Source of the DNA: a bacterium | GTDB taxonomy: Bacteria; UBP18; UBA7526 | Direction of reading: 5' to 3' | Assembly (NCBI GenBank): GCA_030619985.1 | Contig: JAUXAI010000013.1 | Span: forward strand, 1-22,328 | DNA length: 22,328 nucleotides | Shown here: in pieces, positions 9,197 to 22,328 of the stretch | Layout: the number at the start of each line of letters is the position of its first letter | How positions within the stretch are numbered: position 1 is the first letter of the stretch | Notes under the pieces: generated by a model | Told to the model about the DNA's origin: nothing | Databases searched by the model: none | The model's input: the letters and a program-made list of their open reading frames with translations, nothing else | Made by a program: the position numbers and the translations under genes

Positions 9197-9200
9197 AGTG

Positions 9201-9257
9201 CCTGCCTGTCGAAGTCCGGTGAAGACGGTCCGTCTGTCGGAGACGGACGGAGGCAGG
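9201..9257 (+). other. Compound hairpin after gspG
   Basis: An inner perfect eight-pair stem GTCCGTCT (9228-9235) / AGACGGAC (9241-9248) with loop GTCGG is enclosed by an outer stem CCTGCCT (9201-9207) / AGGCAGG (9251-9257). It begins four bases after the gspG stop. There is no following T-run, so partial attenuation or mRNA protection is more likely than full termination. Confidence 0.5.
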
Positions 9258-9280
9258 GAGGTTTCCATTTGAAGATAAAA

Positions 9281-9306
9281 CCCCGCCCCGATGTATCGGG
9301 ACGGGG
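9281..9306 (+). other. Eleven-pair GC-rich hairpin between gspG and gspH
   Basis: CCCCGCCCCGA (9281-9291), loop TGTA, TCGGGACGGGG (9296-9306), one mismatch. Second strong hairpin in the same gap. It resembles a dispersed CCCGAT-type palindrome: a related CATCCCG/CGGGATG hairpin lies inside gspJ. No U-tract follows. Confidence 0.5.
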
Positions 9307-9343
9307 GCAATCATACATAACAGTTGGCCAGTTTCGGCTAAAA

Positions 9344-9440
9344 AATTAAATATCAAAAATCAAATATCAAAATGACAATCCAAAATGTAAAAATTTTGCA
9401 TTTTAATATATAATTTTGATTTTTGCACTTTAAATTTTGA
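9344..9440 (+). repeat. AT-rich inverted repeat before first gspH
   Basis: AATTAAATATCAAAA at the left is complementary to TTTTGATATTTTAATT at the right, with AAATGTAAAA and TTTTGCATTTT words between. It is the same family as the sequence at 1-90. It fills the space up to the gspH start, where no clear ribosome-binding site is visible. Confidence 0.55.
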
Positions 9441-9478
9441 TATTTTAATTATCAACCGATTAACGTAACCTCTATATT

Positions 9479-10018
9479 ATGAATAAAAGAAATGGTTTCT
9501 CTATAATAGAGTTATTGGCTGTAATATTTATTATTGCTCTTATGGCCCTGGCGGCCTTTGCTATATTCAAGAATTTCAGGGAGACGACGAGCGTCAGGGT
9601 AGCGGCCAGGGATGTGGTGAACATCATGCGCCTTGCCCGGCAGAAGGCGGTTACCGAGAGAGAACCCTATCTTGCAGTCTATGACTGTAATAATGAAACC
9701 ATCTGGGTCCAATCCTATTCCATCTATATTACTTCAGGAAAGAATCCGGACTTTGGCACGGAGCAAGCCCTCCCCGATATGGCAATCATCGCCCGGGTCA
9801 AAGCAGGCACGGGAGGCCAAGCATCGAACCCTGGCACTCCAGATCCAAATCCAATGGATGCAGCAGACACCGGGACGGCTTATCATAAATTCTCACCCAA
9901 AAGCACGGTTACCGCGGGAAGTGTTTGGTTAAAAGACAAAGGGCTCAAGAACTTCTATAAAGTAACGCTTAAATCCCCGACAGCCCGGGCAAGAATCTAT
10001 GATAGCTGGGAAGATTAA
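9479..10018 (+). CDS. GspH/FimT-type minor pseudopilin, set 1
   Basis: 179 residues. Leader MNKRNG, then FSIIEL (Glu +5) and a hydrophobic helix to about residue 31. The following FRETTSVRVAARDVVNIMRLARQKAVTEREPY is the typical GspH/FimT pattern (helix with ArgXAA, then ARxxAv), and the C-terminus ends with the beta-rich GspH domain (RARIYDSWED). Minor pseudopilin H sits under the tip complex. No Shine-Dalgarno sequence precedes ATG 9479, so it may be poorly translated or use another mechanism. It starts the first H-I-J-K set, and gspI follows after three bases. Confidence 0.87.
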   Translation: MNKRNGFSIIELLAVIFIIALMALAAFAIFKNFRETTSVRVAARDVVNIMRLARQKAVTEREPYLAVYDCNNETIWVQSYSIYITSGKNPDFGTEQALPDMAIIARVKAGTGGQASNPGTPDPNPMDAADTGTAYHKFSPKSTVTAGSVWLKDKGLKNFYKVTLKSPTARARIYDSWED

Positions 10019-10021
10019 GGG

Positions 10022-10492
10022 ATGAAACGGAGAAGGGGAGAAACGGAGAAGGGGAGAAACGGAGAAAAAAAGAAGCTCATCGATTCCCCGTCTCCCCGTT
10101 TCCCCGATTCAAAGAAAGCGGGATTCACCCTTCTGGAGGTCATGGTTGCTGTGATTGTCCTGGGTTTTGGCCTCTTGGCCATTATGCACCTCTTTCCCAT
10201 TGGCCTCAGGGCAAGCAAGATATCCCAGGATACCACGGTGGCCTCCTTTCTGGCCCAGGCAAAGATAGAGGAGTTAAAGAATACTGGATGGAGTCAGATA
10301 GCGGGAGGCACGGAGGCTTACGGAGGAATAACCGACTATCCAGAATTCAAACGGGTAACAACCATTGACAATGTAGAGATCACGGATCCCGGGCTCAAAA
10401 GAATAACGGTTGAGGTCTTCTATAAGCCCTATGGTGGGGAGCGAAGCGTAAAGCTGGTTACTCTCTTTACTGATTATTCGAAAAAGATGTAA
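10022..10492 (+). CDS. GspI/PilV-type minor pseudopilin with repeat-encoded leader, set 1
   Basis: 156 residues. Processing site at Gly34 | Phe35 (AGFTLLEVMVAVIVLGF, Glu at +5), then the GspI pattern with MHLFPIGLRASK and TTVASFLAQAKIEELKNTGW. GspI is a core tip pseudopilin that pairs with J and K. The 34-residue leader is unusually long because 10024-10113 is an octamer repeat (GGAGAAAC and GGAGAAGG units, then TTCCCCGT units) read as protein. There is no later in-frame ATG/GTG/TTG before the processing site, so the repeat must be translated. Only three bases separate it from gspH, so the two are co-translated. Confidence 0.86.
   Translation: MKRRRGETEKGRNGEKKKLIDSPSPRFPDSKKAGFTLLEVMVAVIVLGFGLLAIMHLFPIGLRASKISQDTTVASFLAQAKIEELKNTGWSQIAGGTEAYGGITDYPEFKRVTTIDNVEITDPGLKRITVEVFYKPYGGERSVKLVTLFTDYSKKM
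10024..10113 (+). repeat. Octamer inverted repeat inside the gspI leader
   Basis: Left arm steps in eights through CGGAGAAG, GGGAGAAA, CGGAGAAG, GGGAGAAA, CGGAGAAA. The right arm has TTCCCCGT, CTCCCCGT, TTCCCCGA, TTC, complementary to it. The same right-arm ending CCCCGATTCAAA occurs in the leader of the next gene. It is translated in frame. Confidence 0.7.
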
Positions 10493-10501
10493 TAAAATAT
10501 A

Positions 10502-10624
10502 GAAAGTGAGAAAGTGACCAGGTGAGAAGGTGACCGGTAATCAGGTAATCAGGCTATCAGATAATCAGGAAGAGGAAGAAAGGGGAAAGATCACCGATAC
10601 CCCGGTTCTCCGATTCCCCGATTC
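10502..10624 (+). repeat. Octamer repeat spanning the gspJ start and leader, set 1
   Basis: Steps in eights: AAAGTGAG, AAAGTGAC, CAGGTGAG, AAGGTGAC, CGGTAATC, AGGTAATC, AGGCTATC, AGATAATC, and later TCACCGAT, ACCCCGGT, TCTCCGAT, TCCCCGAT. It covers both the gap and the first roughly 30 codons of gspJ. Its final CCCCGATTCAAA matches the end of the gspI leader repeat. Confidence 0.68.
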
Positions 10625-11270
10625 AAAAAGAATGGGAGTTACCCTTGTTGAGCTTCTGGTCGCAGTTGCCTTACTTTCTCTGTTAATGGTTGCTTTCTAT
10701 ACTGTCTTTAAGATGGGAACCAAGGCCTATAAGACAGGAGAGGAAAGGGTAGAACTAATCCAGAATGCAAGAATTGCCTTTGAGAGAATGGTGAATGAGA
10801 TCAGGCAGGCCCTACCCGATGTGAGTGGCGATGCACCAGATGTTGTCTTTGAACTCGGGGAAGGAGGATCAGCGAAGGAGGGCCGCTGGATTACTTTCTA
10901 TGCTCCCATAGATGGAGTGGAAGGAGCGGAAAGGATTCAGTTCTCCAGGTACTCTGGTGAGCCGGGGGTGGGGAGCGAGACCTATACCCTTTATAAGAGA
11001 GTGCTCAATCCTCCTTATCAAACAAGTGAGGGAAGTTATAGTTTACGTAGTGCTGGTTCCCAACCAATAACTGCCGCCATGCCCGGTACAGAGGGTATTG
11101 TCTCCTATCTCTACTTTAATGATCGACCACCGGCATCCCGTGTCGGGATGATAAAAGTTACTCTGACGGTCAAAGCCGATCCTACAGATGCCAACGATCC
11201 CGGGACCACCTTGCACGCCATGGTCAAGGCGGGCATCCGCTATGGAGAGGATTTAACTGGGGGCTTCTGA
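10530..11270 (+). CDS. GspJ/PilW-type minor pseudopilin with repeat-encoded leader, set 1
   Basis: 246 residues. Processing site Gly36 | Val37 (RMGVTLVELLVAVALL, Glu at +5), then a helix and the GspJ pattern YKTGEERVELIQNARIAFERMVNEIRQAL, followed by a beta-rich domain. GspJ is part of the I-J-K tip complex. Start GTG 10530 is the first usable codon, because upstream GTGs in the repeat are followed by stops. An ATG at 10632 would leave only Met-Gly before the cleavage site, too short for a leader. The peptide RFPDSK before the site is shared with gspI and comes from the repeat. A CATCCCG/CGGGATG palindrome (11134-11150) lies in the coding region. The stop overlaps the gspK start (TGATG). Confidence 0.85.
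   Translation: MTGNQVIRLSDNQEEEERGKITDTPVLRFPDSKRMGVTLVELLVAVALLSLLMVAFYTVFKMGTKAYKTGEERVELIQNARIAFERMVNEIRQALPDVSGDAPDVVFELGEGGSAKEGRWITFYAPIDGVEGAERIQFSRYSGEPGVGSETYTLYKRVLNPPYQTSEGSYSLRSAGSQPITAAMPGTEGIVSYLYFNDRPPASRVGMIKVTLTVKADPTDANDPGTTLHAMVKAGIRYGEDLTGGF
11134..11150 (+). repeat. Palindrome inside gspJ coding sequence
   Basis: CATCCCG (11134-11140), loop TGT, CGGGATG (11144-11150), a perfect seven-pair stem. It encodes part of PASRVGM between a beta strand (YLYFNDRPP) and the next (IKVTLTV). Related CCCGAT/ATCGGG palindromes occur between genes (9281-9306), so this may be an in-frame insertion of the same element. Confidence 0.4.
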
Positions 11271-12880
11271 TGGGAGAAAGGGGTGTTGCCGTGATTATGG
11301 CCATGTGGCTCTTGGCCGTCTTAGCCATCATCGGCACCACCTTCATCTTTATGATGCGTTTAGAACCCATCATCGCCCGAACCCATCGGGACGATATGAA
11401 GGCCATGTATATCACCCAGGCCGGGATAGACCATGCGGTCTATTGGCTAAGAAGGGATACAGATCTTACCATTGACTCCTTCAAGGAGGATTGGGCGACC
11501 TTCTTCAGTGGCTCGGCTGTTGATAACGATGGGGATGGGGAGATGGATTCCAAGTGGATTACTTTGACGGATGAGGATGGAAATATCTTTGGTTACTATG
11601 CAGTATTGATAAACGATGAAGCAGGGAAGGTGAGCCTCAATAACCCATTAGCAGATAATAGTCCCTGGAAGAACCTTCTGGATGGGCTGCCACCAGAGTT
11701 AGATATAGGCACTACAAAAGTCAATAATATCGTTAACTATCAGAAAGGCACTTATGGGCCCTTTGAGACCCTTGACGAATTAGCCTGCGTTTATGACATA
11801 AGTGAAGAGAGTCTCTCAGTCTATCATCAGGTGGCAAAGGTACATCATAAAGGCTTTCCTACAAACCCTACCACCTTCCGTCTTCCCATAAATGTCAATA
11901 CGGCAAATGAGAAGGCCCTGAAGGCTGCCTTTGGCAGGAATCAGAGTGGAACTCCTGGCTATGCCATACTGAAAGTAACTGAGACGAATATCGACCGGGT
12001 AGTGACAGCAATCCTTGCCTATCGTGCTGGAGCAGATGGCATAGAGAGGACAGCAGACGACAACCCCTTTGATGGTGTGGATAGTTATGATGGCGACCAA
12101 CAAGGCAATCCTACGACCATCCCTGGGGATGGCATCTCCGAGGACAACTTCGGAACCATCTCTACAGACCTCGATCCCGCTGGGGGAAACTTTCCCGGCG
12201 CTACTGTCGAGGAGCGGACCAGAGAAGAGTTTAATACCCTGATTAACTATATCCGGGCCTTTGGCTATCCCTCTGGCTCAGATAAGATAACAAAAGCCTA
12301 TGTCCGGGATAATATCAAGGATAACTTCGATGTGGGAGTGGATTACGACAATTATGATTCCAATACCGATGTAGATGGAAACCAGGATAACCACTACCAG
12401 TGTCCAGTATTAGAATGTAAAGCAGTAGTGGCAAGCACCACTATCACCTGTCCCGTCTGTGGAGCAAGTATTACCCCGAAAGAGATAAGGAATGAAATTG
12501 ATAGGAATGAGACGGATGAGAAGTATGAGCCCGGCCTCTGTCCCAATCATAATGGCTGTCCCATGGGCGGAAAAGTGATGAGCATAGATTCAAATGTCTG
12601 TCCCATCTGTGGAGTAAGCGTCACCCCTACTGCCTATGACCCTCTGGACTTCAGTGCTGACCCTGAGACCTATACCACAAACTTCTCCTTTAACAATAGT
12701 CCTACTGGCCCTCCCATGTCCCATAATGACCAGTTCTTTGAGATAATCTCAACCGGAAAGTATGTCTCCCCATCCGGTCAGGGGACCCTGAAGAGGATCA
12801 GGATCATTATAAACAGGGGAAAGGCTACCCCGGCGATTGAAGGCAAAATCTTGTACTACAAAGAAATCCCGGAGGACTGA
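11270..12880 (+). CDS. gspK: GspK-type minor pseudopilin with two zinc-ribbon-like motifs, set 1
   Basis: 536 residues, longer than the roughly 320 of classical GspK. Leader MGERG is followed by VAVIMAMWLLAVLAIIGTTF; GspK characteristically lacks Glu+5, as here. Next come QAGIDHAVYWL and the D-rich DNDGDGEMDSKW (about residues 86-97), a likely calcium site. NDEAGKVSLN and the helix-hairpin-helix-like PINVNTANEKAL are both typical. The unusual part is 378-447: C378-x4-C383 with C394-x2-C397 (CPVCG), then C424-x5-C430 with C444-x2-C447 (CPICG), two zinc-ribbon-like clusters. GspK caps the pseudopilus tip outside the inner membrane, where zinc ribbons are rare; the cysteines could instead form disulfides. 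ATG 11270 overlaps the gspJ stop. Confidence 0.86.
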   Translation: MGERGVAVIMAMWLLAVLAIIGTTFIFMMRLEPIIARTHRDDMKAMYITQAGIDHAVYWLRRDTDLTIDSFKEDWATFFSGSAVDNDGDGEMDSKWITLTDEDGNIFGYYAVLINDEAGKVSLNNPLADNSPWKNLLDGLPPELDIGTTKVNNIVNYQKGTYGPFETLDELACVYDISEESLSVYHQVAKVHHKGFPTNPTTFRLPINVNTANEKALKAAFGRNQSGTPGYAILKVTETNIDRVVTAILAYRAGADGIERTADDNPFDGVDSYDGDQQGNPTTIPGDGISEDNFGTISTDLDPAGGNFPGATVEERTREEFNTLINYIRAFGYPSGSDKITKAYVRDNIKDNFDVGVDYDNYDSNTDVDGNQDNHYQCPVLECKAVVASTTITCPVCGASITPKEIRNEIDRNETDEKYEPGLCPNHNGCPMGGKVMSIDSNVCPICGVSVTPTAYDPLDFSADPETYTTNFSFNNSPTGPPMSHNDQFFEIISTGKYVSPSGQGTLKRIRIIINRGKATPAIEGKILYYKEIPED

Positions 12881-12907
12881 TAAATAACAATGCAAAATGA
12901 AAATTTT

Positions 12908-12966
12908 ACTTTTTACCTATCAACTTATTAACTTATTGACTTGTCAACTTATCAACTTGTCAACTA
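12908..12966 (+). repeat. Octamer repeat before second gspH
   Basis: Clean eight-base steps: ATCAACTT, ATTAACTT, ATTGACTT, GTCAACTT, ATCAACTT, GTCAACTA. Same words as at 1279-1310 and 7506-7556. It is open in frame with the downstream gene, which makes that gene look 28 codons longer than it probably is. Confidence 0.68.
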
Positions 12967-12980
12967 ATCTGGGGAAGACC

Positions 12981-13553
12981 GTGCTAAAGAATAGAAAGGG
13001 GTTCAGTCTTATAGAAATGATGGTGGTAGTAGTCATCATTGCCATTGTCATGGGGGGGGTACTCTTCTACGGCCAGGGGACCTACCGCAGGACGAGCGTC
13101 AAGAATGCTGCCCGGGATATCGCTTCTTTAATGAGACTGGCCAGTAGCAAGGCATTGAGCGAGAGGATATATTATAACCTGGTCCTTGACCTGGACAATG
13201 AGAACTGTTACCTTGAAAAGTATGGTCCCGGTCCTGACGGGGTCTGGGAGAACGTTGTGATCGGAGGAGCGCTGGCAAAAGATTATATGAGCGATAATAC
13301 TACTGAGACAGATGGTAGCCCGGGAGCGAGTAAGAAGATGCCTAGGGCAGTGGATATAGACAATGTCGATGGGACGAGTAGCGGAGAAGTGGAAATAACC
13401 TTCACCTTGAAAGAGACGGTGGTGAATTGTAGTGACCCCCCGGCTACCCCAGATTATGTTGTCTATCTTGACGATAAGATAACGGGAAGCGTCCAATACA
13501 AGGTGGCTGTTGATAACGATACTGCTCGGGTGAAGATATACAGTTCCTGGTGA
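12981..13553 (+). CDS. GspH/FimT-type minor pseudopilin, set 2
   Basis: 190 residues from GTG 12981: leader MLKNRKG, then FSLIEM (Glu +5), hydrophobic helix VVVVIIAIVMGGVLFYG, and the GspH pattern RRTSVKNAARDIASLMRLASSKALSERIYYNL. The C-terminus RVKIYSSW resembles the RARIYDSW of set 1, so the two gspH genes are paralogues. I prefer GTG 12981, preceded by GGGGAAG, over ATG 12897. The longer form would translate an octamer repeat into a Leu/Asn-rich leader of 35 residues and has no ribosome-binding site. It begins the second H-I-J-K set. Confidence 0.83.
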   Translation: MLKNRKGFSLIEMMVVVVIIAIVMGGVLFYGQGTYRRTSVKNAARDIASLMRLASSKALSERIYYNLVLDLDNENCYLEKYGPGPDGVWENVVIGGALAKDYMSDNTTETDGSPGASKKMPRAVDIDNVDGTSSGEVEITFTLKETVVNCSDPPATPDYVVYLDDKITGSVQYKVAVDNDTARVKIYSSW

Positions 13554-13616
13554 GACGCGAATAGACGCGAACTGTAAAGCATGGAAGGAAGTAATAAACG
13601 CGAATAATCGCGAATA
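13554..13616 (+). repeat. CGCGAAT repeat between second gspH and gspI
   Basis: AGACGCGAAT, AGACGCGAAC, then AACGCGAATAATCGCGAATAA with units ten bases apart. The same words recur at 16372-16432, 20363-20453 and 21230-21290, marking a dispersed family. No coding potential. Confidence 0.6.
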
Positions 13617-13644
13617 AAAAAGGCAGGTGGGGAAGGAGGAATTT

Positions 13645-14136
13645 GTGAAACGGAGAAAGGGGGAAAGGGAAAAAGGGGGAAGATCACCGATTCCCCGACC
13701 TGTCCCGTTGGAAGCCAAAGGCTTTCCTTCGGGGTTCACCGATTCACCGATTCATTTTCAAACGGGGTTTACCATTCTCGAGGCCATGATCGCTCTGGTC
13801 ATCCTCTCCATTGCCCTTTTAGCCCTTTTACGCGTCATGCCCGTGGGGATAAAAGGGAGCAAGTTAGCGGAGGAGACAACCATCGCCACCATGCTCGCCC
13901 AGAGGAAGATTGAGGAAATAAGGGCAGCGGGATATCCTGATGCAGCCACTACAAACGGCACTTTCGCTGCTCCAGATAATAATTTCGACTGGGAGATGAC
14001 GGTTAACTCTTACATAACTAACCTGAGGGATCTCTCCCTCTCCATCTATTGGCCAGCGGCTAGCGGGAGCCCGGGAGATAGGAGTGGCCAGCGCTGTGTG
14101 GGGATCAAGACCTATGTGGCTGATTATAGTAAATAG
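13645..14136 (+). CDS. GspI/PilV-type minor pseudopilin with repeat-encoded leader, set 2
   Basis: 163 residues from GTG 13645, chosen because AAGGAGG (13633-13639) lies five bases upstream; GTG 13627 has no such site. Processing site Gly41 | Phe42 (TGFTILEAMIALVILSIALL, Glu +5). MPVGIKGSKLAEETTIATMLAQRKIEEIRAAGYP parallels the set-1 gspI and shows common descent. The 41-residue leader is translated repeat: GGAGAAAGGGGGAAAGGG at the left, TTCCCCGACCTGTCCCG and TCACCGATTCACCGATTC at the right, with a GGAAGCC/GGCTTTCC hairpin inserted. It is the only intact gene in the window ending in TAG, and a second in-frame TAG follows one codon later. Confidence 0.84.
   Translation: MKRRKGEREKGGRSPIPRPVPLEAKGFPSGFTDSPIHFQTGFTILEAMIALVILSIALLALLRVMPVGIKGSKLAEETTIATMLAQRKIEEIRAAGYPDAATTNGTFAAPDNNFDWEMTVNSYITNLRDLSLSIYWPAASGSPGDRSGQRCVGIKTYVADYSK
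13648..13756 (+). repeat. Repeat and small hairpin inside the second gspI leader
   Basis: Purine-rich left part (GAAACGGAGAAAGGGGGAAA) and pyrimidine-rich right part (GATTCCCCGACC, then TTCACCGATTCACCGATTC in eight-base steps). A GGAAGCC aaa GGCTTTCC hairpin at about 13711-13728 interrupts it. It is translated in frame. It parallels the repeats in the set-1 gspI and gspJ leaders. Confidence 0.6.
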
Positions 14137-14154
14137 ATTTAGAGAGGCGTCCTT

Positions 14155-14802
14155 ATGCTTAAGAATGAAAAGGGATTAACCCTACTGGAACTTATGGTGG
14201 CCCTGGTCATCACCGCCCTTTTAGGCATGGCCATCTACAATGTCTGTAAGATGGCCATGGATGCCTGGCAGAAGGGGGAGGCCCGGACCCAGGTATATCA
14301 GAATATGCGCATCGCCTTAGATAGGATGAGTGAGGAGATTCGGAGTGCCATAACCCTTGACCCCACCTATAATCTTTCTCCCAATGATGACATCTACTTC
14401 GATGGAACTTCAACCACCCTGAACTTCATATCCATCGCCCATGCACCCATTGGAAATTATTATGATAGCAACTTCGCTACCAATGAATTGGTCTTTGACT
14501 GCTGCGAGATTGGCTATAGACGCTTGGGAACGAGCATCCTCAGGAGGAAACAGGAGAAGAATGTTCCGGATGACAATATCACTACTGGAGGCTCGGAGAA
14601 GGAACTGGTTACCCATATTACAAGCCTGGGCTTCAGATACTCTTCAGATGGCTCGAGCTGGGATACCGAGTGGTTAGAGGCAAAGACTGAGACCGATGGG
14701 TTGCCCAAGATTGTGGAAATTAGCATTACCGCTGAGTCTGAGAGTGCCCGATATCCAAATACAAAGACCTTCTCCACCTATGTCTATCTCTCTGGAAGGT
14801 AA
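14155..14802 (+). CDS. GspJ/PilW-type minor pseudopilin, set 2
   Basis: 215 residues. Ordinary short leader MLKNEKG, then LTLLEL (Glu +5) and helix MVALVITALLGMAIYNV. The following MDAWQKGEARTQVYQNMRIALDRMSEEIRSAI is the GspJ pattern and aligns with YKTGEERVELIQNARIAFERM of set 1. A beta-rich C-terminal domain ends in STYVYLSGR. AGAGG before the ATG gives a good start. Unlike its set-1 paralogue it has no repeat in the leader, showing that the repeat is not needed for function. It sits 18 bases after gspI. Confidence 0.86.
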   Translation: MLKNEKGLTLLELMVALVITALLGMAIYNVCKMAMDAWQKGEARTQVYQNMRIALDRMSEEIRSAITLDPTYNLSPNDDIYFDGTSTTLNFISIAHAPIGNYYDSNFATNELVFDCCEIGYRRLGTSILRRKQEKNVPDDNITTGGSEKELVTHITSLGFRYSSDGSSWDTEWLEAKTETDGLPKIVEISITAESESARYPNTKTFSTYVYLSGR

Positions 14803-14814
14803 GGAAGGTGCGGA

Positions 14815-16371
14815 GTGAAGTTATTTAAAGAGATTAGAGAGAGAAAGGGGATTGCTCTTATTATGGCCCTCTGGATAATGACCATCCTCTTAGTGGTTGC
14901 GGCCTCCTTTGCCTTTATGATGAGGACTGAGGTGAAGATGGCCAAGAATTACCGTGATGGAATGAAAGCCCACTATCTTGCCTTAGCCGGCGTAGACCAT
15001 GCCATCGCCATGATCCAGAATGATGGGGGAGATGTTGACCATCTCTACGAGGCCTGGTTCACCACTTTTGCTACGGGCTTCGATCATGTAAATGTCACCT
15101 GGGATGAGCGGGTCTTTACCTTTGGAGACGGAACCTATGCCGTAAACCTATCGGATGAGAATAGTAAGTATAACCTCAACTATCCCAACCGTTCCGGGTT
15201 AAAGTTCCTGGTGAGCCTGGATCAGGGTTCAAACCCATCCGTTATCTGGCAGGGGAAGATATGCGGGATTAAGGACTATGTAGATTCGGATGAAGACGTC
15301 CAGGATTGGGGGGGTACGGATAGAGGATATGAAGGCACCGGGGTCGAGAATAAGCCTTTCGATACGGTATATGAGATACAGAAGGTGAGAGGTTATACGG
15401 CCGGCGGCGGCTATGGGATAATCAAAATAAACGATGGCTTCTGGGCCGGCGGCAAAATATATGATAACCCTCTGGATCCACCTTCTGTTGGCTCACGGGG
15501 CCAGCAGAGCGACATGACCGTCTATTCTCAGGACCAGAATACCCAGGTCGATGGTAGCCCAAGAATAGAGATTAAGGACGCCGGTCAAACCACCTTTGAA
15601 GAAGATATTGGCTTCCCTCCTGATGAAGCATCCGCCATAGCCACTGCGTCTGATAAGTTTGCTGACTATCCCGATCCCTATCCCTGGATGACCGAGGACA
15701 TAGACGATTGGCAAGGGATTGGAGCACCGGGATGGTATGATCCTCCTGGTAAGGTTAATCTTGAAGTTGATGTTAACATTCCATCGATGATATTGGCGGC
15801 AGATAAGATGACCGCGGGCAACTACGATAGTGGCATCATCAAAGGAGCGATTAATATCAATACTGCCACCCTCTATGGCCTAAGAGGCCTCCTCATGATT
15901 GATGTGGTCAAGGGGCAGGCCATCATCGATACCCGACTACGACAAGCAGACGGGGGGATAACCTGTAAGGGGCCAGATGGGGAAATAGGCGGCGGTGACG
16001 ATGACTATCTTGAAAACATTGAACTTCCAGATACCACACCTCCTTATACTGGTGACCCTCGGGGAACTCCCTACTTCGCCAATCGGGGGGAGATAATGAT
16101 GGTAGACCCGGGAGGAGGCTTACCAACAATAAAAAGATATGACTTTTGTTTCTTCGGGGATATAGTGACCGTGAGGACGAATCGCTTCCGGATCTACTCC
16201 ACAGGGAAGGTGGGCATTGACGGGAATAGTGATGGCGACCTTGAGGATAGTGTAGATACCGTCTTTGCTTCCCGAAAGATTGAGGCGGTCGTTGATCGGG
16301 ATGGAGATCAGAATGGGACGCCGGGGGATATAAAGGTTCTCTACTGGTCAGAGAAGGTCTTTGCGGATTGA
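14815..16371 (+). CDS. gspK: GspK-type minor pseudopilin, set 2
   Basis: 518 residues. Leader ending RKG, then IALIMALWIMTILLVVAASFAFMMR (no Glu+5, as in GspK), ALAGVDHAIAMI, SDENSKYNLNYPNR and the helix-hairpin-helix-like GAININTATLYGL. Asp/Gly-rich loops (DGNSDGDLEDSVD and RDGDQNGTPGD) near the C-terminus may bind calcium. It lacks the cysteine clusters of the first GspK and has only isolated cysteines. Start GTG 14815 has AAGGAAGG (14801-14808) overlapping the gspJ stop, so translation is coupled. It is the last pseudopilin gene; in related loci pilM-pilN-pilO-secretin would be expected next, but about 5.5 kb of other genes intervene here. Confidence 0.86.
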   Translation: MKLFKEIRERKGIALIMALWIMTILLVVAASFAFMMRTEVKMAKNYRDGMKAHYLALAGVDHAIAMIQNDGGDVDHLYEAWFTTFATGFDHVNVTWDERVFTFGDGTYAVNLSDENSKYNLNYPNRSGLKFLVSLDQGSNPSVIWQGKICGIKDYVDSDEDVQDWGGTDRGYEGTGVENKPFDTVYEIQKVRGYTAGGGYGIIKINDGFWAGGKIYDNPLDPPSVGSRGQQSDMTVYSQDQNTQVDGSPRIEIKDAGQTTFEEDIGFPPDEASAIATASDKFADYPDPYPWMTEDIDDWQGIGAPGWYDPPGKVNLEVDVNIPSMILAADKMTAGNYDSGIIKGAININTATLYGLRGLLMIDVVKGQAIIDTRLRQADGGITCKGPDGEIGGGDDDYLENIELPDTTPPYTGDPRGTPYFANRGEIMMVDPGGGLPTIKRYDFCFFGDIVTVRTNRFRIYSTGKVGIDGNSDGDLEDSVDTVFASRKIEAVVDRDGDQNGTPGDIKVLYWSEKVFAD

Positions 16372-16432
16372 AAACGCGGAGACGCGAATCAACACGAATC
16401 TGAAAAAACGCGAATTATCGCGAATAAAGAAA
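16372..16432 (+). repeat. CGCGAAT repeat after second gspK
   Basis: ACGCGGAGACGCGAATC, AACACGAATC, AACGCGAATTATCGCGAATAA: the same units as at 13554-13616. It marks the boundary between the pseudopilin genes and the accessory block. Confidence 0.6.
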
Positions 16433-16476
16433 ATACAGATAAGCATCTCAAATAATTTATAAGGGGAATGGGAAAA

Positions 16477-17190
16477 GTGAAGATATTTAAACAAATAGCA
16501 ACGACCTTTTTTGTTTTGTGCTTAGCCTTAGTAGTATCTTCTAATAATGTTTCATTATCTAAGAATCCAGATGTTGCTCCAAAAGTAAGTATTACCTCAC
16601 CACAGGATGGAGCAACAGTTAGTGAAGATACACTTAATGTTGTAGTTAGCTTCGGCCCTAAAGAAAAGGGAAAAGGAAACGTGAGATATATTGAACTTGG
16701 ACTCGATGGGCTCTTGGCAGCAGAGTATGAAAACCCAGCAAATATCAAGGAAGGGACACATACCTTCAGCATAGATATAAAAGACCTCTCCTTAGGAGAA
16801 CATTTCCTTCAGGCCTTTGCCTATTTAGCAGAAAAGAGGGCAGGACATAAAGGAGTCTCTGAGGTTATTACCTTTACTCTGGAACCCCTTCCCCCCGTTC
16901 CTCCAGAAGAGGTTTGGAATAATATGAAGAGCACCTTAAAAGAAGGAAATATCGAAGATGCCTTAACTCACTTCAGCGAAGGCTCAAAGGAAAAGTATAG
17001 AGAAATATTTACTCTGTTGAAAAATGAATTGCCCAGAATTGCTAATGAAATGGAAGAGATATATTTAATTGCTATTCAGGGAAATGTGGCAGAGTATTTT
17101 ATTAAGAGAGTAGAAGATGGTGTAGAAAAAGCATACTTCATCTACTTCATAAAAGATGAAAACGACAACTGGAAAATTGACACATTCTAA
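16477..17190 (+). CDS. Exported protein with Ig-like and NTF2-like regions
   Basis: 237 residues from GTG 16477 (240 from ATG 16468). AAGGGG at 16461-16466 is one base from the ATG but ten from the GTG, so GTG is slightly favoured. The N-terminus KIFKQIATTFFVLCLALVVSS is a Sec signal without a clear lipobox. Residues about 35-135 (VSITSPQDGATVSEDTLNVVVSF... TLEPLPP) look like a bacterial Ig-like domain. The C-terminal 100 residues (EEVWNNMKSTLKEGNIEDALTHFSE... YFIYFIKDENDNWKIDTF) resemble NTF2/SnoaL-like domains that end in a W-x-I strand. The role is unknown, probably periplasmic or surface. Base use is more AT-rich than the pilus genes, suggesting separate origin. The next gene starts four bases downstream. 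Confidence 0.68.
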   Translation: MKIFKQIATTFFVLCLALVVSSNNVSLSKNPDVAPKVSITSPQDGATVSEDTLNVVVSFGPKEKGKGNVRYIELGLDGLLAAEYENPANIKEGTHTFSIDIKDLSLGEHFLQAFAYLAEKRAGHKGVSEVITFTLEPLPPVPPEEVWNNMKSTLKEGNIEDALTHFSEGSKEKYREIFTLLKNELPRIANEMEEIYLIAIQGNVAEYFIKRVEDGVEKAYFIYFIKDENDNWKIDTF

Positions 17191-17194
17191 TATA

Positions 17195-17527
17195 ATGAAG
17201 CCCTCTACAAAAATTATAGGATTTACTATTATTGGAGCAGTTACTGGGGCTCTATTAGGACTTTTATATGGATATCTAGTAGGCGATAGCCTTATTCTTT
17301 TCCTCTTTGGATGTAGTATACCGTGGATGATTACTGGAGCTTTAGTTTTTTTAGAAATTAGCAGTATAAAGGAGTTTACAAAAAAGAAAAGTAAATTAGT
17401 AAAATGTTTAAGTTTAATTTTTGCTATTATCCTTACTTTTATAATAATTATTAAGATAGTGCCTTTTTTATCAATTTATTTTGAGACGATGTATGATAAA
17501 CTTTTTATTGCACCTAAATTACACTGA
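17195..17527 (+). CDS. Small three-helix membrane protein, unknown
   Basis: 110 residues from ATG 17195, chosen because it avoids overlap with the preceding frame; a start at 17156 is also open. Three hydrophobic segments: IIGFTIIGAVTGALLGLLYG, LILFLFGCSIPWMITGALVF and CLSLIFAIILTFIIIIKIV. A basic loop (EFTKKKSKLVK) lies between the second and third. No Shine-Dalgarno sequence is apparent. The coding sequence is strikingly AT-rich. I do not recognise a family. Its close spacing to both neighbours suggests one transcript with the exported Ig/NTF2 and phospholipase-like genes. Confidence 0.55.
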   Translation: MKPSTKIIGFTIIGAVTGALLGLLYGYLVGDSLILFLFGCSIPWMITGALVFLEISSIKEFTKKKSKLVKCLSLIFAIILTFIIIIKIVPFLSIYFETMYDKLFIAPKLH

Positions 17528-17540
17528 GGAGTTTAGAATA

Positions 17541-20204
17541 ATGAGAATAAAGCAATTTCTACCTATTTTTCTAATGTTAATTCTATCTTCTCTGACCGTG
17601 ATTGTCCAAACTGCAAATGCTTATAATTCAAAGCTCCACCCTATAATAACGAAAGAATCTATTAACAAATCAAACTTATCTACGGCAAATTATTTGAACA
17701 GGGAATTGGGCTTTAAAAAAGACCTCAATGAAGAGTTTGAGGGCCCCGACAAAACTATTGGCGGAGACATCACTATCAATACGAGAACAGCCCAGGGGTG
17801 GATCGAACGAGGCAGCTTAGTGGAAGACATACCTATGGGATTAAGGGCGAGGACTCACTTTTATGACCCAGTAAACGAGATTGGATTAACTGATCTTCGT
17901 GAATGGTTGATAACCGAGGATCACGCTTTAAAAAGGGCAAAGGGAGAAGGAGAAATTGAGTTCGATTACTCATGGAAAGATGCCAGAGAGTACTATTACA
18001 AGGCTTTGACGAGTGAGACTAAGGAAGTAAGAAACGAGAACTTTGCTAAAACATTTAGAACCTTAGGTCAGGTCCTCCATCTCTTACAAGATATGGCTGT
18101 TCCAGCTCATGTGCGCAATGACAATCATTTTCCACCCCGCATATTTAGTTCTGGAGGATGGGATATGTATGAGCACTACTGCACTCCTGGTGCCCCTTTG
18201 ATCTATGAGGGCTATCCTGTAGTAGAGTTTGATCAACTTAAACCAGAATCTGAAGAATATGTTAGTTTCGATGATTTCTGGGATACCAATATTGGTTCTG
18301 CTACCTTCGGCAAAGGTTTAGCAGAATTCACTAACCACAATTTCCTCAGTCGGGACACAAACTTTGATGCTATAAGAGATTACCATAAATACCTTTATCC
18401 CCTAAAACCTACACCATCAGATATGTGGTGGTCAAAGGATGAAGAAATAACTTACACAGATGAAAATACAGGAGAGGAAATAACGACAACAGTAAAAGTA
18501 GAGTATCTAAAAAGATACGCTTATGACAATTATCTGGGAGCTGAATTTGGCAACCCCTGCCTGACAGCCAAATCCTACTTTGATTTTGAAACAGAGAAAT
18601 ACGGTGTTAAGGCCTATTCTCTGAATAGATCATGTCATCAGTGTTATGCCAAACTTTTACTTCCCCGGGTGGTGGGCTATTCGGCAGGGCTTCTGAACTA
18701 CTTCTTCCGAGGAAAATTGGATGCTACAATAATTCCAGTAGAGGGTGGAGCTCCCAATGAAAGGGAATTAAAAATAACCAATAAATCAGATGAAGATATG
18801 AAGGATGGTACTTTAACCTTCCTTTATGAAAATAAAGATGGCATATATGTAGAGTTAAAAAAGCAGAGTGGAGTCAAGATAGACGCGGGCAAAGAGTATG
18901 AGGGTGAATTTAGATTTAATAAACCTCAAGAGAAGGTGGTCAACTATATCTTGGTCTTCAATGGAACCTTAGGCAATGAGGCCCCAGTAAGCGACCAAGA
19001 GAAAGGGGCAGTAGTTGGAAAGATATGGTTAACAACTTTGAAGATTGTATGGGAGGAGTCTAGTGCCATTTATATGTATGATTTATCAGTAGATACAGAT
19101 GAAGATGGGGTTCCTAACTATTTAGATAGTGATCGGCCTGATCCTGATCCAGCAGAAGTCCGAATTCCTATCAGTACTACTCATGGTCCGTGGATGCCAT
19201 GGCTGCCGTATATTGCCAATAATAAAATTATATATGTTGGAGGTACATATGGCGAGTGTGAAGGTATATATATGTATGATTTATCAGTAGATACAGATAA
19301 AGATGGGGTTCCTAACTACCTGGAAGATCCTCCTCTTAATCCAGACCCGGCTGAATCTTTAGTTATTGGTCCTATTGTGCCGGGTGTTGGGTGGATAGGA
19401 GGTGTATCTGATAAGCATATTTTTTATGCGCCATGGGAAGAGAAAATCCCGGGAGATGAGGGGTGGTATTATAAGATAGACATCTACAGGTATGACTTGG
19501 CAAATAAAGAAGAGGAGTATATTACCTCTATTAACACTGGGTCAAGAGTGTGCTGGAATGTGGCGGTAGATAGTGGTAAAATAGTCTATGTCCAGAAACG
19601 GCCTAGAAGCGAAGTTCGTGTCTATAATATCTCTACAGGAGAAGATAGAGCAGTCCATGCGTATGAAGGTGAGAATGACTATGTCGCCCAGTATTTCCCA
19701 GATATATCTGGGGATAAAGTAGTATACGTTCAGAACCCAGGAATAGAAAACGTTTGGCGCTACTATGGACATGTTGACCTCTATGATTTATCAACCTCAA
19801 CGTTAATGCGTTTGGGTGAGTATGATGAGGAGAATTGGCCATACGCTGATGCACAACAACCACCTTTCACTTATCCTCAAATACATGGTAATATCGTGGC
19901 TTGGGCCACGGGCGGAAGCGATACTGGCGAATCGCCCGTGGGTGTGGAAAATCCTATCCACATCTACGATCTGGCCAAAGGGGAAGAGTTACCAGCAACC
20001 AGCCGGCCATATTCAAGATATCCCAAGACGTACCGGGGTATAGTTGTGTGGGGGTTGATAATCCGATCGGAATACCCAGACCGATGGAGAACCACGGCGC
20101 TATACTTGTATGACACAGCCCACCCAGAACATGGTACAATCGAAATAACACCAGGGGTCAAAGAGGGATGGCGTTACTCCTCCTGGTGGAGGATAGGATA
20201 CTAA
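17541..20204 (+). CDS. Exported zinc phospholipase C/S1-P1-like protein with propeller-like tail
   Basis: 887 residues from ATG 17541, nine bases after GAGGAG (17526-17531). Signal peptide 1-27, probable cut ANA|YN. Residues 28 to about 390 resemble the zinc-dependent phospholipase C/S1-P1 nuclease fold: H33, H106 (RTHFYDP), and LHLLQDMAVPAHVRNDNH with H180, D184, H190, H196 as likely metal ligands, then LLPRVVGYSAGLLNYFF. An Ig-like stretch follows (about 400-480). The rest (about 490-887) repeats VYDL/YMYDL and KIVYV strands like a TolB-type beta-propeller, including two DTDxDGVPNYL calcium-binding-type loops 66 residues apart. Substrate (lipid or nucleic acid) is not determinable. Placed inside a secretion locus, it is a plausible cargo, but that is inference. 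Confidence 0.75.
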   Translation: MRIKQFLPIFLMLILSSLTVIVQTANAYNSKLHPIITKESINKSNLSTANYLNRELGFKKDLNEEFEGPDKTIGGDITINTRTAQGWIERGSLVEDIPMGLRARTHFYDPVNEIGLTDLREWLITEDHALKRAKGEGEIEFDYSWKDAREYYYKALTSETKEVRNENFAKTFRTLGQVLHLLQDMAVPAHVRNDNHFPPRIFSSGGWDMYEHYCTPGAPLIYEGYPVVEFDQLKPESEEYVSFDDFWDTNIGSATFGKGLAEFTNHNFLSRDTNFDAIRDYHKYLYPLKPTPSDMWWSKDEEITYTDENTGEEITTTVKVEYLKRYAYDNYLGAEFGNPCLTAKSYFDFETEKYGVKAYSLNRSCHQCYAKLLLPRVVGYSAGLLNYFFRGKLDATIIPVEGGAPNERELKITNKSDEDMKDGTLTFLYENKDGIYVELKKQSGVKIDAGKEYEGEFRFNKPQEKVVNYILVFNGTLGNEAPVSDQEKGAVVGKIWLTTLKIVWEESSAIYMYDLSVDTDEDGVPNYLDSDRPDPDPAEVRIPISTTHGPWMPWLPYIANNKIIYVGGTYGECEGIYMYDLSVDTDKDGVPNYLEDPPLNPDPAESLVIGPIVPGVGWIGGVSDKHIFYAPWEEKIPGDEGWYYKIDIYRYDLANKEEEYITSINTGSRVCWNVAVDSGKIVYVQKRPRSEVRVYNISTGEDRAVHAYEGENDYVAQYFPDISGDKVVYVQNPGIENVWRYYGHVDLYDLSTSTLMRLGEYDEENWPYADAQQPPFTYPQIHGNIVAWATGGSDTGESPVGVENPIHIYDLAKGEELPATSRPYSRYPKTYRGIVVWGLIIRSEYPDRWRTTALYLYDTAHPEHGTIEITPGVKEGWRYSSWWRIGY
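19071..19120 (+). repeat. Internal direct repeat, copy 1
   Basis: These 50 bases recur at 19269-19318 with one mismatch (GAAGAT against AAAGAT), 198 bases apart, exactly 66 codons. They encode YMYDLSVDTDEDGVPNY. Near-identity at DNA level implies recent duplication or gene conversion of a propeller-like module. Confidence 0.8.
19269..19318 (+). repeat. Internal direct repeat, copy 2
   Basis: Second copy of the 50-base unit at 19071-19120, encoding YMYDLSVDTDKDGVPNY. Sequence after the shared stretch diverges (LEDPPLNPDPAES against LDSDRPDPDPAEV), though the proline/aspartate character is retained. Confidence 0.8.
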
Positions 20205-20321
20205 GAGGGAGACAACAGAAGGTGAGTAAGGCCAACGGAAACTGGGGTAAACCTTGGCTATTACGTATAGACAGAAAATTGAAGGTCGGGTTCGGCGGAA
20301 TCCTTTAAAAAGGAAAAAGAT

Positions 20322-20360
20322 TTGAAGAAGATATCTCTATTCAAGCCATTACTTAAGGCT
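20322..20360 (+). pseudogene. pilM: 5' fragment of a divergent pilM
   Basis: TTG at 20322 opens a frame reading MKKISLFKPLLKA, the same first 13 residues as the pilM that begins at 21950. Over 20318-20359 against 21946-21987, 38 of 42 bases match. Every difference inside the shared codons is silent (ATA/ATT, CTA/TTA, TTA/TTG, CTT/CTC, GCT/GCA). After Ala13 the similarity stops and the frame runs through CGCGAAT-type repeat to TAA at 20451. The silent-only pattern suggests it was part of a working pilM allele before being cut off by insertion. It is too short to function. Confidence 0.75.
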
Positions 20361-20362
20361 AC

Positions 20363-20453
20363 AACACAAATATTCGCGAGTATTCGCGTTCCTACAGACC
20401 CCAACAATAAGCAATACAAAGAAATTCGCGTCCTAGGGAAACAACGCGAATAA
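20363..20453 (+). repeat. CGCGAAT-type repeat before the hicB cassette
   Basis: Contains TATTCGCGAGTATTCGCG, AAATTCGCG and finally GGGAAACAACGCGAATAA (20436-20453). That last 18-base string is repeated exactly at 21273-21290, in front of the second cassette. It lies directly after the pilM fragment. Confidence 0.62.
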
Positions 20454-20497
20454 TGGAGAGAGAATGTCCAAGAATTATGAGAGGAGGTAACTGTCAA

Positions 20498-20698
20498 ATG
20501 AAATTTCGAGTAGAATTAGAATACGATTTTGAATACGAAGGGTATGTTGCAGAATGTCCCATGTTACCTGGCTGTATGTCTCAAGGGAAGACTAAGAAAG
20601 AGGCTTTGAAAAATATTCAAGAGGCCATCTCTGGCTATCTCAAAGTAGTCAAGAAGAAACATTCTTTAAATCCTTGCTCAAGGCCAGAACGCAAATAA
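20498..20698 (+). CDS. HicB-like antitoxin, orphan
   Basis: 66 residues from ATG 20498, preceded by GAGGAGG at 20481-20487; an ATG at 20453 is open but has no such site. The sequence shows the HicB N-terminal half: strand FRVELEYDFEYEGYVAECPMLPGCMSQGKTKKEALKNIQEAISGYL, with the family's CPxLPGC(x)SQGxTxxEA pattern. No DNA-binding C-terminal domain is present. It lies 32 bases before a second hicB that is coupled to hicA, so it has no toxin partner of its own. It may be a duplicated or solitary antitoxin. Confidence 0.8.
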   Translation: MKFRVELEYDFEYEGYVAECPMLPGCMSQGKTKKEALKNIQEAISGYLKVVKKKHSLNPCSRPERK

Positions 20699-20730
20699 GA
20701 ATCTGAATAATCTATTAAAAAGGGGAAAAG

Positions 20731-20979
20731 ATGAAGAAAAAGAAGGTTAGGAAATTTACCGTAGTATTTGAGAAAGCAAAAGAAGGGGGATATGTAGTGA
20801 GCGTTCCCATCCTTCCCGGGTGTGTAAGTCAGGGCGAGACATTTGAAGAAGCAGAAAGAATGATTAAGGACGCCATCAAATGCTATTGTGAAAGCCTGAT
20901 CAAACATGATGAACCAATCCCTAAAGAAAGCGAGGAAATCTTTGGCCTCGTTGATGTGCCAATCAGAATATCAGCATGA
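20731..20979 (+). CDS. hicB: HicB antitoxin
   Basis: 82 residues. FTVVFEKAKEGGYVVSVPILPGCVSQGETFEEAERMIKDAIKCYCESLIKHDEPIP is the standard HicB partial RNase H-like fold including the LPGC-SQGET-EEA signature. The tail ends DVPIRIS, with no ribbon-helix-helix domain visible. Known HicB proteins bind and neutralise HicA and can repress their own operon. AAAGGGG before ATG 20731. The stop overlaps the hicA start by four bases (ATGA), so toxin and antitoxin are made together. The antitoxin-first order is less common than hicA-hicB but is known. Confidence 0.9.
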   Translation: MKKKKVRKFTVVFEKAKEGGYVVSVPILPGCVSQGETFEEAERMIKDAIKCYCESLIKHDEPIPKESEEIFGLVDVPIRISA

Positions 20980-21212
20980 GTGCCAGATTAGGCAGTATAA
21001 AGCCAAAGGAGTTTATTCGACGATTAAGAAAGGCTGGCTTCAGGATTGATCATCAAACAGGAAGTCATGTTACCTTACTTGATGATGCAGGGCATAGAAT
21101 AGTGGTTCCCTTTCATGTAAAAGACTTAAAGAAAGGTCTTCTCTTTAAACTTATTAAACAAGCAGGATTTACTGTGGAAGAATTTAAACGATTAAGGAAA
21201 AAAAGCAGGTGA
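20976..21212 (+). CDS. hicA: HicA toxin (mRNA interferase)
   Basis: 78 residues, double-stranded RNA-binding-like fold of HicA. KPKEFIRRLRKAGFRIDHQTGSHVTLLD contains the invariant GSH with catalytic His31. VVPFHVKDLKKGLLFKLIKQAGFTVEEF is the usual C-terminal half. HicA cleaves mRNA until bound by HicB. All diagnostic residues are present, so it is probably active. The last two codons and stop (AGC AGG TGA) lie within the 27-base repeat that equals the pilM start region, so the present C-terminus may have been fixed by the insertion event. Confidence 0.9.
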   Translation: MSARLGSIKPKEFIRRLRKAGFRIDHQTGSHVTLLDDAGHRIVVPFHVKDLKKGLLFKLIKQAGFTVEEFKRLRKKSR

Positions 21213-21228
21213 AGATTTGAAGAAGATT
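21202..21228 (+). repeat. 27-base direct repeat of the pilM start region, copy at hicA end
   Basis: Identical over all 27 bases to 21935-21961, which contains the pilM ribosome-binding site and first codons. This copy includes the hicA stop codon and a dead-end TTG AAG AAG ATT. A third, diverged relative is at 20318-20359. Together they bracket the two cassettes. Confidence 0.85.
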
Positions 21229-21229
21229 G

Positions 21230-21290
21230 CAACCGCAAAAGCGCAAAACTTAACTGAAAAACGCAAAAAGAGGGGAAACAACGCGAATAA
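21230..21290 (+). repeat. CGCAAAA/CGCGAAT-type repeat before the DUF5678 cassette
   Basis: Units ACCGCAAAAGCGCAAAAC, AAACGCAAAAAG and GGGAAACAACGCGAATAA (21273-21290), the last identical to 20436-20453. It follows the pilM start copy directly, the same order as at the first cassette. Confidence 0.6.
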
Positions 21291-21307
21291 AGAGAAGGAG
21301 TAGAAAG

Positions 21308-21523
21308 ATGAAACTTCAAGAGGCAAAGAAGAAATATAAAGGGGAATGGTTAGCCTTTTTAGTAGTCAAAGAAATAAAGGGCAAGGAGGTTGAGGGAAGA
21401 GTTCTTGCCCATACCAAAGATAGACGTCTTCTCCATCAGATTCTGAGGGATAAACGGGTCAAAAATGCCTACATTACCTATGCTGGCCCGATGGTTAAGC
21501 CAGGGTATGCGGTAATGTTCTGA
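21308..21523 (+). CDS. DUF5678 family small protein
   Basis: 71 residues. Pattern KYKGEWLAFLVVKE... EGRVLAHTKDRRLLHQIL... AYITYAGPMVKPGYAVMF fits the DUF5678 family as I remember it: KYxGEWVA near the start, a G-x-V-lAH strand and an aromatic/glycine C-terminus. Function is not established to my knowledge. GAAGGAG at 21294-21300 gives a strong start. The stop overlaps the protease start (TGATG), so the two are translated together. Size and arrangement recall a toxin-antitoxin partner, but no activity can be inferred from sequence. Confidence 0.78.
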   Translation: MKLQEAKKKYKGEWLAFLVVKEIKGKEVEGRVLAHTKDRRLLHQILRDKRVKNAYITYAGPMVKPGYAVMF

Positions 21524-21912
21524 TGGAAATAAGAATAAGGCCAAACTCACCCATTATCATTCCCAGGGTAAGGATTTGGGGACCTAAAGCTTCTCGAGAA
21601 ATAGATCTGATCCTTGATTCTGGAGCAATGTATACTTCCATCTCCTGGGATGTCGCAAAAGACATCGGTTATGATCCAGCAAGGGTTTCTCGTCGTGCTT
21701 CAATTGTTACCGCAAATGGAGTAATTGAGGTCCCGTTATTTGAAGTAGACCGTATCACTATTTCCGATTTAAAAGCAACAAAGGTTAAGGTAATATGTCA
21801 TGATATCCCAGAAGTTGTAGAAGTAGAAGGTCTATTAGGCTTAAGTTTCTTGCAACATTTTCGAACAACGATCGACTTCAAAAGTCGAAAGGTAAAGATT
21901 GAGAGTTTCTAA
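21523..21912 (+). CDS. Retropepsin-like (clan AA) aspartic protease
   Basis: 129 residues, the length of a single-domain retropepsin that must dimerise. Catalytic motif LILDSGAMYTSI with Asp32-Ser33-Gly34-Ala35. GLLGLSFLQHFRTTIDFKSRKVKI near the end is the family's hydrophobic-Gly loop and last strand. The middle has paired strands (ASIVTANGVIEVPLFEVDRITI) suitable for the flap. No signal peptide or transmembrane segment, so it is cytoplasmic. Members are widespread in prokaryotes with mostly unknown substrates. The start overlaps the DUF5678 stop and no other ribosome-binding site is evident, so it depends on its partner for translation. Confidence 0.82.
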   Translation: MEIRIRPNSPIIIPRVRIWGPKASREIDLILDSGAMYTSISWDVAKDIGYDPARVSRRASIVTANGVIEVPLFEVDRITISDLKATKVKVICHDIPEVVEVEGLLGLSFLQHFRTTIDFKSRKVKIESF

Positions 21913-21934
21913 ATGAAAAATGGCAATCTAAATC

Positions 21935-21961
21935 AAAGCAGGTGAAGATTTGAAGAAGATT
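21935..21961 (+). repeat. 27-base direct repeat at the true pilM start
   Basis: Exact partner of 21202-21228. It carries AGGTGA (21940-21945) and the TTG start of pilM. Confidence 0.85.
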
Positions 21962-22328
21962 TCTTTATTCAAGCCATTGCTCAAGGCAAAGGCGGTCCTT
22001 GGCCTGGACATTGGAACCAGTTCCATAAAGGCCATTCTATTGAAGGTGACCAAGGAGGAGGTGGAGCTGGCCAATGCCGGGATGGTGGAGCTCCACTTAG
22101 ACCCGGCCATAGAGAATAAGGAGAAGAGGGCCAGGGTCATTGAGGGAATAAAGAGATTATTAGAAGAGAATGAGATAAAGGTCAAGGATGCGGTCATCGC
22201 TGTCCCTGGCCAGTCAGTGATCATAAGGCACCTGAGACTCCCTTCTGGAGCAAGGGAGAGATTAGATCAGGTAATTAAGTTCGAGGCCCAGAACCAGATC
22301 CCCTTCCCCTTAGATAAGGTGGGTATGG
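21950..22328 (+). CDS. pilM: PilM, actin-like inner-membrane pilus protein (5' part)
   Basis: The first 126 codons are in the window; the gene continues beyond it. Start TTG 21950 with AGGTGA upstream. After a basic N-terminus (MKKISLFKPLLKA) comes AVLGLDIGTSSIKAILLKV, the PHOSPHATE-1 motif of the actin/FtsA-like fold, then VKDAVIAVPGQSVIIRHLRLPSG and FEAQNQIPFPLDKV, all characteristic of PilM. PilM sits on the cytoplasmic face, binds ATP and the N-terminus of PilN, and links to the assembly motors. In related loci pilN, pilO and a secretin gene follow. Its position after the accessory cassettes shows the pilus operon was split by insertions. Confidence 0.92.
   Translation, partial: MKKISLFKPLLKAKAVLGLDIGTSSIKAILLKVTKEEVELANAGMVELHLDPAIENKEKRARVIEGIKRLLEENEIKVKDAVIAVPGQSVIIRHLRLPSGARERLDQVIKFEAQNQIPFPLDKVGM

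Follow-up and report, generated by a model that had tools for sequence, protein, structure and literature searches.

Small-gene cassettes and stranded pilM starts between gspK and pilM in bacteria of candidate phylum UBP18

The gspK–pilM gap in the window

The stretch of DNA analysed here (the window; 22,328 nucleotides) is contig C55 of G000, a MAG of 1.25 Mb that is 84% complete. It was compared with five other MAGs of the same family in candidate phylum UBP18 (G001–G005, comprising UBA7526, HyVt-354, KR13_S3.mb.88, CSMAG_2709 and CSMAG_2684), a lineage for which we know of no cultured member. The whole sample is six fragmented MAGs; it includes neither isolates nor variants from within one population, nor any donor molecule. 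At the right-hand end of the window lies pilM (21950–22328, on the forward strand, like gspK and the gap features that follow; TTG start; PF11104, 3e-17), which was found by contig overlap to run on into contig C36 of the same genome. The overlap spans about 141 nt (window 22188–22328 and the start of C36), and strain variation right here could explain why the contig breaks inside pilM. The left border of the variable gap is an ORF for a putative gspK-type minor pseudopilin (14815–16371), whose name comes from gene order and its ending. Between the two lie, in order, a three-ORF insert, a first copy of the pilM start, a truncated hicB of type A, a partial pilM-start piece, a hicB-hicA pair of type C, a second copy of the pilM start, and a 71-aa ORF with a clan AA protease gene.

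The three-ORF insert (16372–20204), upstream of copy 1, is an earlier arrival that begins with CGCGAAT repeats read from the sequence (16376–16426), followed by ORFs called at 16468–17190, 17156–17527 and about 17511–20204. A family search with these ORFs gave no firm family, and the large ORF, the one sought in the relatives, was not found in any of the five. It contains an internal 90-nt repeat (19068–19157 and 19266–19355, 80% identical) that encodes DTDEDGVPNY-type calcium-binding motifs.

Copy 1 of the pilM start, with its leader, occupies 20305–20361 and scored 63 bits against a profile made from the genuine pilM starts of all six genomes, compared with 27.5 bits for the best of 40 shuffles. 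The first-pass annotation had described a diverged pilM-start copy with silent changes, and this is confirmed: pilM nt 1–40 lie at 20322–20361 and differ from the pilM of the window by five changes, all silent, with no change of amino acid. Such a pattern fits divergence between working alleles before stranding.

The first cassette opens with hicB type A (20498–20698; PF15919, 4.8e-7), which is 95–97% identical in nucleotide sequence to its counterparts in G004 and G005 up to position 20662, where homology stops. The gene is truncated after about codon 54 and is an orphan antitoxin, its own hicA having been displaced. Exactly at the break point lies a fourth, partial pilM-start piece (nt 16–40, at 20662–20686). 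Its match is weak, at 25.8 bits, a score reached by 0.5% of random 110-nt stretches; in the pilM frame it reads FFKSLLKA vs LFKPLLKA, and its junction, AAGGCC(A/G)GAACGCAAA, is the same as that of the copy in G003. A repeat-type leader, GAACGCAAATAAGAATCTGAATAATCTATTAAAAAGG (20687–20730), follows and is held in common with the pilM leader of G001 (87% over 53 nt). Behind it stand the type C antitoxin hicB (20731–20979; PF15919, 2.5e-13) and toxin hicA (20976–21212; PF07927, 1.3e-15). Given a pilM piece at the break in the first hicB, the first cassette is composite, a truncated hicB followed by a complete hicB-hicA of another type. The last 14 codons of hicA type C are common at the DNA level with hicA type A of G004 and G005, and 21169–21228 is 88–90% identical to those genomes. 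Since homology to hicB type A ends at 20662 and homology to hicA type A resumes only in these last codons, a foreign hicB-hicA has replaced resident DNA. The type C genes took the place of the 3' part of hicB type A and the body of hicA type A, with a homologous right end in the shared hicA tail and a non-homologous left junction. No relative of hicA type C was found in the viral contigs searched, on which ground a viral vehicle for it is rejected, and a plasmid search gave relatives only below 60% identity.

Copy 2 (21202–21228) is identical over 27 nt to the leader and start of the intact pilM (21935–21961), exactly as first reported. It comprises the hicA tail, the leader and pilM nt 1–12; because the 27-mer also holds the last hicA codons (AAAGCAGGTGA), the duplication takes in no more than 12 nt of the pilM reading frame. 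The profile of pilM starts that detects copy 1 also picks up this 12-nt piece and, weakly, the one at 20662–20686. The window has other exact repeats of at least 20 nt, none of which is a gene start upstream of its own gene. Cassette 2 consists of the 71-aa ORF (21308–21523), without a Pfam or NCBIfam match but with 59 nt at its start 95% conserved in a G003 remnant, and the gene for a clan AA (retropepsin-like) aspartic protease (21523–21912; PF13975, 4.8e-14), the sole copy in the six genomes.

Repeats lead into both cassettes. Before cassette 1 there is a CGCGAAT-type dispersed repeat, identified by reading the sequence (20370–20453), and the left end of cassette 2 is formed by a dispersed repeat running from GCAACCGCAAAAGCGC to AACGCGAATAA (21229–21290); 14 left ends similar to it occur across the genomes, in five out of six. 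Repeats ending in GGGAAACAACGCGAATAA had been noted after both copies and do end there, at 20436–20453 and 21273–21290, but CGCGAAT repeats are genome-wide, at 26 places in G000 with up to two mismatches, and not specific to cassettes. The idea that they are cassette-specific ends was rejected, as they occur at many gene borders. Throughout G000, dispersed repeats of about 60 nt running from GACGCGAATYAACGCGAACTGTAAAGCAAAAACG to GACGCGAATCAACGCGAATAA are found in both orientations at many gene borders, often with a reverse-oriented partner (e.g. L004, L005, L014, L023, L025).

The same gap in five relatives

The gspK–pilM interval is present in all five relatives, and the six genomes have six different gaps: none, hicB only, hicBA, hicBA+hicBA, hicBA+HEPN/MNT and the window array. 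The G001 gap is without a cassette, pilM nt 9–36 abutting the gspK stop and repeat debris following; G002 has an orphan hicB, its hicA internally deleted. A remnant of the 71-aa ORF, a hicB-hicA pair, pilM nt 1–38 and then HEPN and nucleotidyltransferase genes make up the gap of G003, while that of G004 has hicB-hicA type B, pilM nt 1–77 and hicB-hicA type A. A hicB-hicA pair of type A stands in G005 before a single pilM start, with no remnant. Domain matches were confirmed for the cassettes of the relatives (PF07927, PF15919, PF05168 and PF18765), and adjacent hicB and hicA genes exceed the family cut-offs in the window (20731–21212), G003 and G004. Tandem duplication of one cassette was rejected, as adjacent hicBA pairs differ in type.

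The alignment of this interval bears out the prediction that some relatives lack one or both cassettes and others carry different small cassettes. It establishes that cassettes form arrays and that pieces of the pilM start, 12–77 nt long, lie between or before them in G000, G001, G003 and G004, and weakly in G002. The pieces end at pilM nt 12, 36–40 or 77 and are short, too short for trees. None of the five relatives is wholly free of debris, and G005, with its single start, still has a cassette. Two successive insertions at one site had been proposed for the window; serial insertion stands, with more than two events.

A 26-base pilM-start pattern, with up to three mismatches, matched pilM loci only in the six genomes, at two places each in G000, G003 and G004 and one each in the others. 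In a control scan for upstream copies of 599 gene starts, in stretches of the six genomes, the strong upstream matches were dispersed repeats or tandem paralogues, and the cases remaining were pilM of G000, G004 and G003, and weakly of G001. By this control, the idea that genes beside repeats generally have duplicated starts is rejected. When 24 pilM loci of other phyla were scanned for start copies, 14 of them with a testable start, an upstream match scoring as high as 20 was found for just one alternative start (L042, 1440–1485).

Movement of cassettes, and probably of pilM alleles, between genomes

Divergence is unequal across the interval: gap contents differ, and between species pilM is less conserved than the cassettes at the DNA level. 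Identity was compared at codons for the same amino acid, with p values that treat codons as independent. Counted in this way, hicB exceeds pilM between G004 and G005 (0.99 vs 0.75, p 1e-7), between G003 and G004 (0.87 vs 0.67, p 2e-4) and, for type A, between G000 and G005 (0.92 vs 0.72, p 9e-4). For G000 and G004 the values are 94% for hicB type A vs 70–72% for pilM, and in pairs with G003 they are 86–87% for hicB type B vs 67–68%. The cassette genes are far more alike between genera than pilM and therefore move horizontally. Of six HicA matches across all six genomes, five lie in the gspK–pilM gap. By these comparisons of codons and positions, cassettes are shown to move between UBP18 species with a preference for this one site.

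Alleles of pilM itself bear on the direction of these events. Between the G004 remnant and the real pilM of that genome there are differences at six of the first 30 nt and at two of the next 47, and compared with G005 the real gene is a mosaic, 75% identical over nt 1–40 and 90% over nt 41–378, the remnant keeping the other allele. As the allele differences are concentrated at the start, the remnant looks resident and the start of the real gene imported. This mosaic start and the silent-only changes of copy 1 back the earlier suggestion that the incoming DNA brought a different pilM allele with it.

Exchange may also reach beyond the gap. The sister genomes G000 and G002 share 98% protein identity in PilT and 98.6% in PilM, and only 35–57% in the second pseudopilin set, the gspK-type gene being 35% identical at the amino acid level. 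Nucleotide similarity between the two returns at 21940, the pilM leader. The divergence of this set, with similarity back at 21940, makes the gap the edge of a larger recombining block, and such divergence of the minor pseudopilins suggests either block exchange or strong diversification. Two pseudopilin sets stand in succession in the window at 8735–16371, as compared with G002 (L097).

Proposed routes of capture

The reading we favour, which we hold to be somewhat more probable than its negation, is serial additive capture, with a homology anchor at pilM and, on the left, an illegitimate junction by which the 5' end of the resident pilM is stranded. In this pilus/secretion operon the gspK–pilM gap would be a hotspot at which promoterless cassettes of small genes (HicBA, HEPN/MNT and the protease pair) are captured. 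Incoming DNA from a UBP18 relative would pair at pilM, its homologous right end, and its left end would join illegitimately within the 5' end of the resident gene, in many cases at the beginning of a dispersed GCAACCGC/CGCGAAT repeat. Each event would add a cassette and a donor pilM start, the first 12–77 nt of the resident gene staying upstream as a remnant and pilM remaining intact behind its ribosome-binding site; repeated events would build arrays, and internal deletions or replacements would give rise to orphan antitoxins and debris. We infer that the step is one-sided, a homology-facilitated illegitimate recombination (HFIR), with natural transformation as its likely entry, and that an insert survives only if it leaves the pilM start unharmed.

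Right ends lie in the pilM leader or start, or in the shared hicA tail, and are homologous, and left junctions are non-homologous. The junction of copy 2 (AAGAAGATT|GCAACCGC) has ATT in common with the usual repeat end, ATTGCAACCGC, which hints at microhomology at that single junction. ComEC is encoded in all six genomes and DprA exceeds its cut-off in five, so that DNA uptake is plausible, though unproven.

A possible but rather less likely explanation is insertion with long target duplication, in which the process copies a long, variable stretch of target and both pilM starts are resident. The exact 27-bp direct repeat around cassette 2 includes bases of the hicA tail, which would not be expected in the cassette, and for this identity, with its 5 nt of hicA tail beyond the leader, plain target duplication fits as well or better. 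TA pairs are comparable selfish modules, and the variable length of the duplications is like the published pattern of long and variable target duplications (PMC3031569, PMC1643837). Against it, the two pilM starts are different alleles in G004, where the differences cluster in the first 30 nt, and for copy 1 of the window; the first cassette of the window removed resident DNA; and the reuse of one site by unrelated cassettes falls outside the pattern so described. One-sided recombination and target duplication may both occur.

A bolder extension, which we consider doubtful, treats the pilM 5' end as a dedicated, reusable capture site of a lineage-wide, integrase-free cassette system. Stranded starts would then still load ribosomes, and a short leader peptide would end at the start codon of the next cassette; read by eye, the frame of such a peptide is open in copies 1 and 2 of the window and in G004, not in G003.

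Site-specific recombination, with the pilM 5' end and repeat as an attachment site at which a recombinase acting in trans inserts circular cassettes in the manner of integrons, would account for one site, many unrelated promoterless cassettes and their arrays. Several remnants end near pilM nt 36–40, which could mark a preferred point or shared descent from one event; other ends, at nt 12 or 77, speak against a fixed site, as does the want of any common 3' site among cassettes besides the pilM leader. Tyrosine recombinases were classified in three genomes (G000, G001 and G002); they are XerC or XerD and fall below the integron-integrase cut-off. A search of these incomplete genomes turned up no dedicated tyrosine integrase, of the integron type or other, among the hits classified (those of G000–G002), and no Y1 transposase in the six. 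Among the six genomes a resolvase-family gene occurs only in G002 (C30, 183960–184406, in a 548-aa open frame). These search results favour homology-anchored exchange over an integrase acting in trans, and we regard the site-specific route as improbable.

Very improbable as the whole explanation is ordinary two-sided allelic exchange of blocks holding pseudopilins and gap, with the remnants as a few old accidents. It accords with a pseudopilin block hypervariable between sisters that are about 98% identical in pilT and pilM, with identity back at 21940, and probably operates alongside additive events; alone, it cannot create extra pilM starts, of which most genomes have at least one, with differing end points. 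An assembly or binning artefact is scarcely credible even for fragmented MAGs and a window contig that ends inside pilM, given the same kind of structure in five separately assembled MAGs, repeats (27–77 nt) shorter than the k-mer of about 141 nt given in the relatives' contig names, and the continuation of pilM in C36.

HFIR involves RecA-dependent uptake of linear DNA, and its products have one homologous end and one illegitimate end, the latter usually with 3–10 bp of microhomology. The general reaction and products combining insertion with deletion have been described, and the process is rare where measured (PMC3240628). The type C replacement resembles them in coupling insertion to deletion with one homologous end. 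The closest model for the pilM site is that of the orphan immunity arrays of the V. cholerae T6SS, for which sequential HFIR has been proposed (PMC5361080). In both, a conserved gene would undergo one-sided recombination again and again, so that a single locus gains unrelated modules and retains orphan protective genes along with remnants of genes; both also show horizontal spread among relatives. In V. cholerae, however, the anchor lies upstream and the 3' part of the old effector is displaced, whereas here the anchor is the downstream pilM and a 5' end is stranded; the modules also differ: here, within a pilus operon, they are intracellular TA cassettes or cassettes of small genes. Within a partial library, neither these sources nor the searches made report capture at pilM or gene starts stranded in this way, and the same library yielded nothing relevant on UBA7526 or on HicA with pilM hotspots.

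Restriction-modification genes of H. pylori insert with long, variable target duplication, according to papers citing Nobusato 2000 (PMC1643837, PMC3031569). They share with the pilM site selfish-type modules, long variable host-gene duplications and the lack of a transposase, but not the reuse of one site by unrelated modules across genera or copies that are often different alleles. Integron arrays likewise hold promoterless small genes, many of them TA, with one expressed position; the pilM site differs in having no integron integrase among the recombinases examined, variable junctions and no attC-type 3' site shown. The cassette genes are of ordinary HicAB and HEPN/MNT families, and the novelty lies in their placement and in the remnants.

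To our knowledge, there is little documentation of how TA and other tiny gene modules get into chromosomes when no transposase or integrase is involved. At the pilM site, the order and direction of successive captures are marked by the core-gene pieces left stranded, so that their route can be read from sequence. The site keeps a readable record of this kind, in which the arrivals are mostly TA genes and most of them leave a broken pilM start; the capture route is testable in more genomes, and cassettes captured in a pilus operon can find an expression site there.
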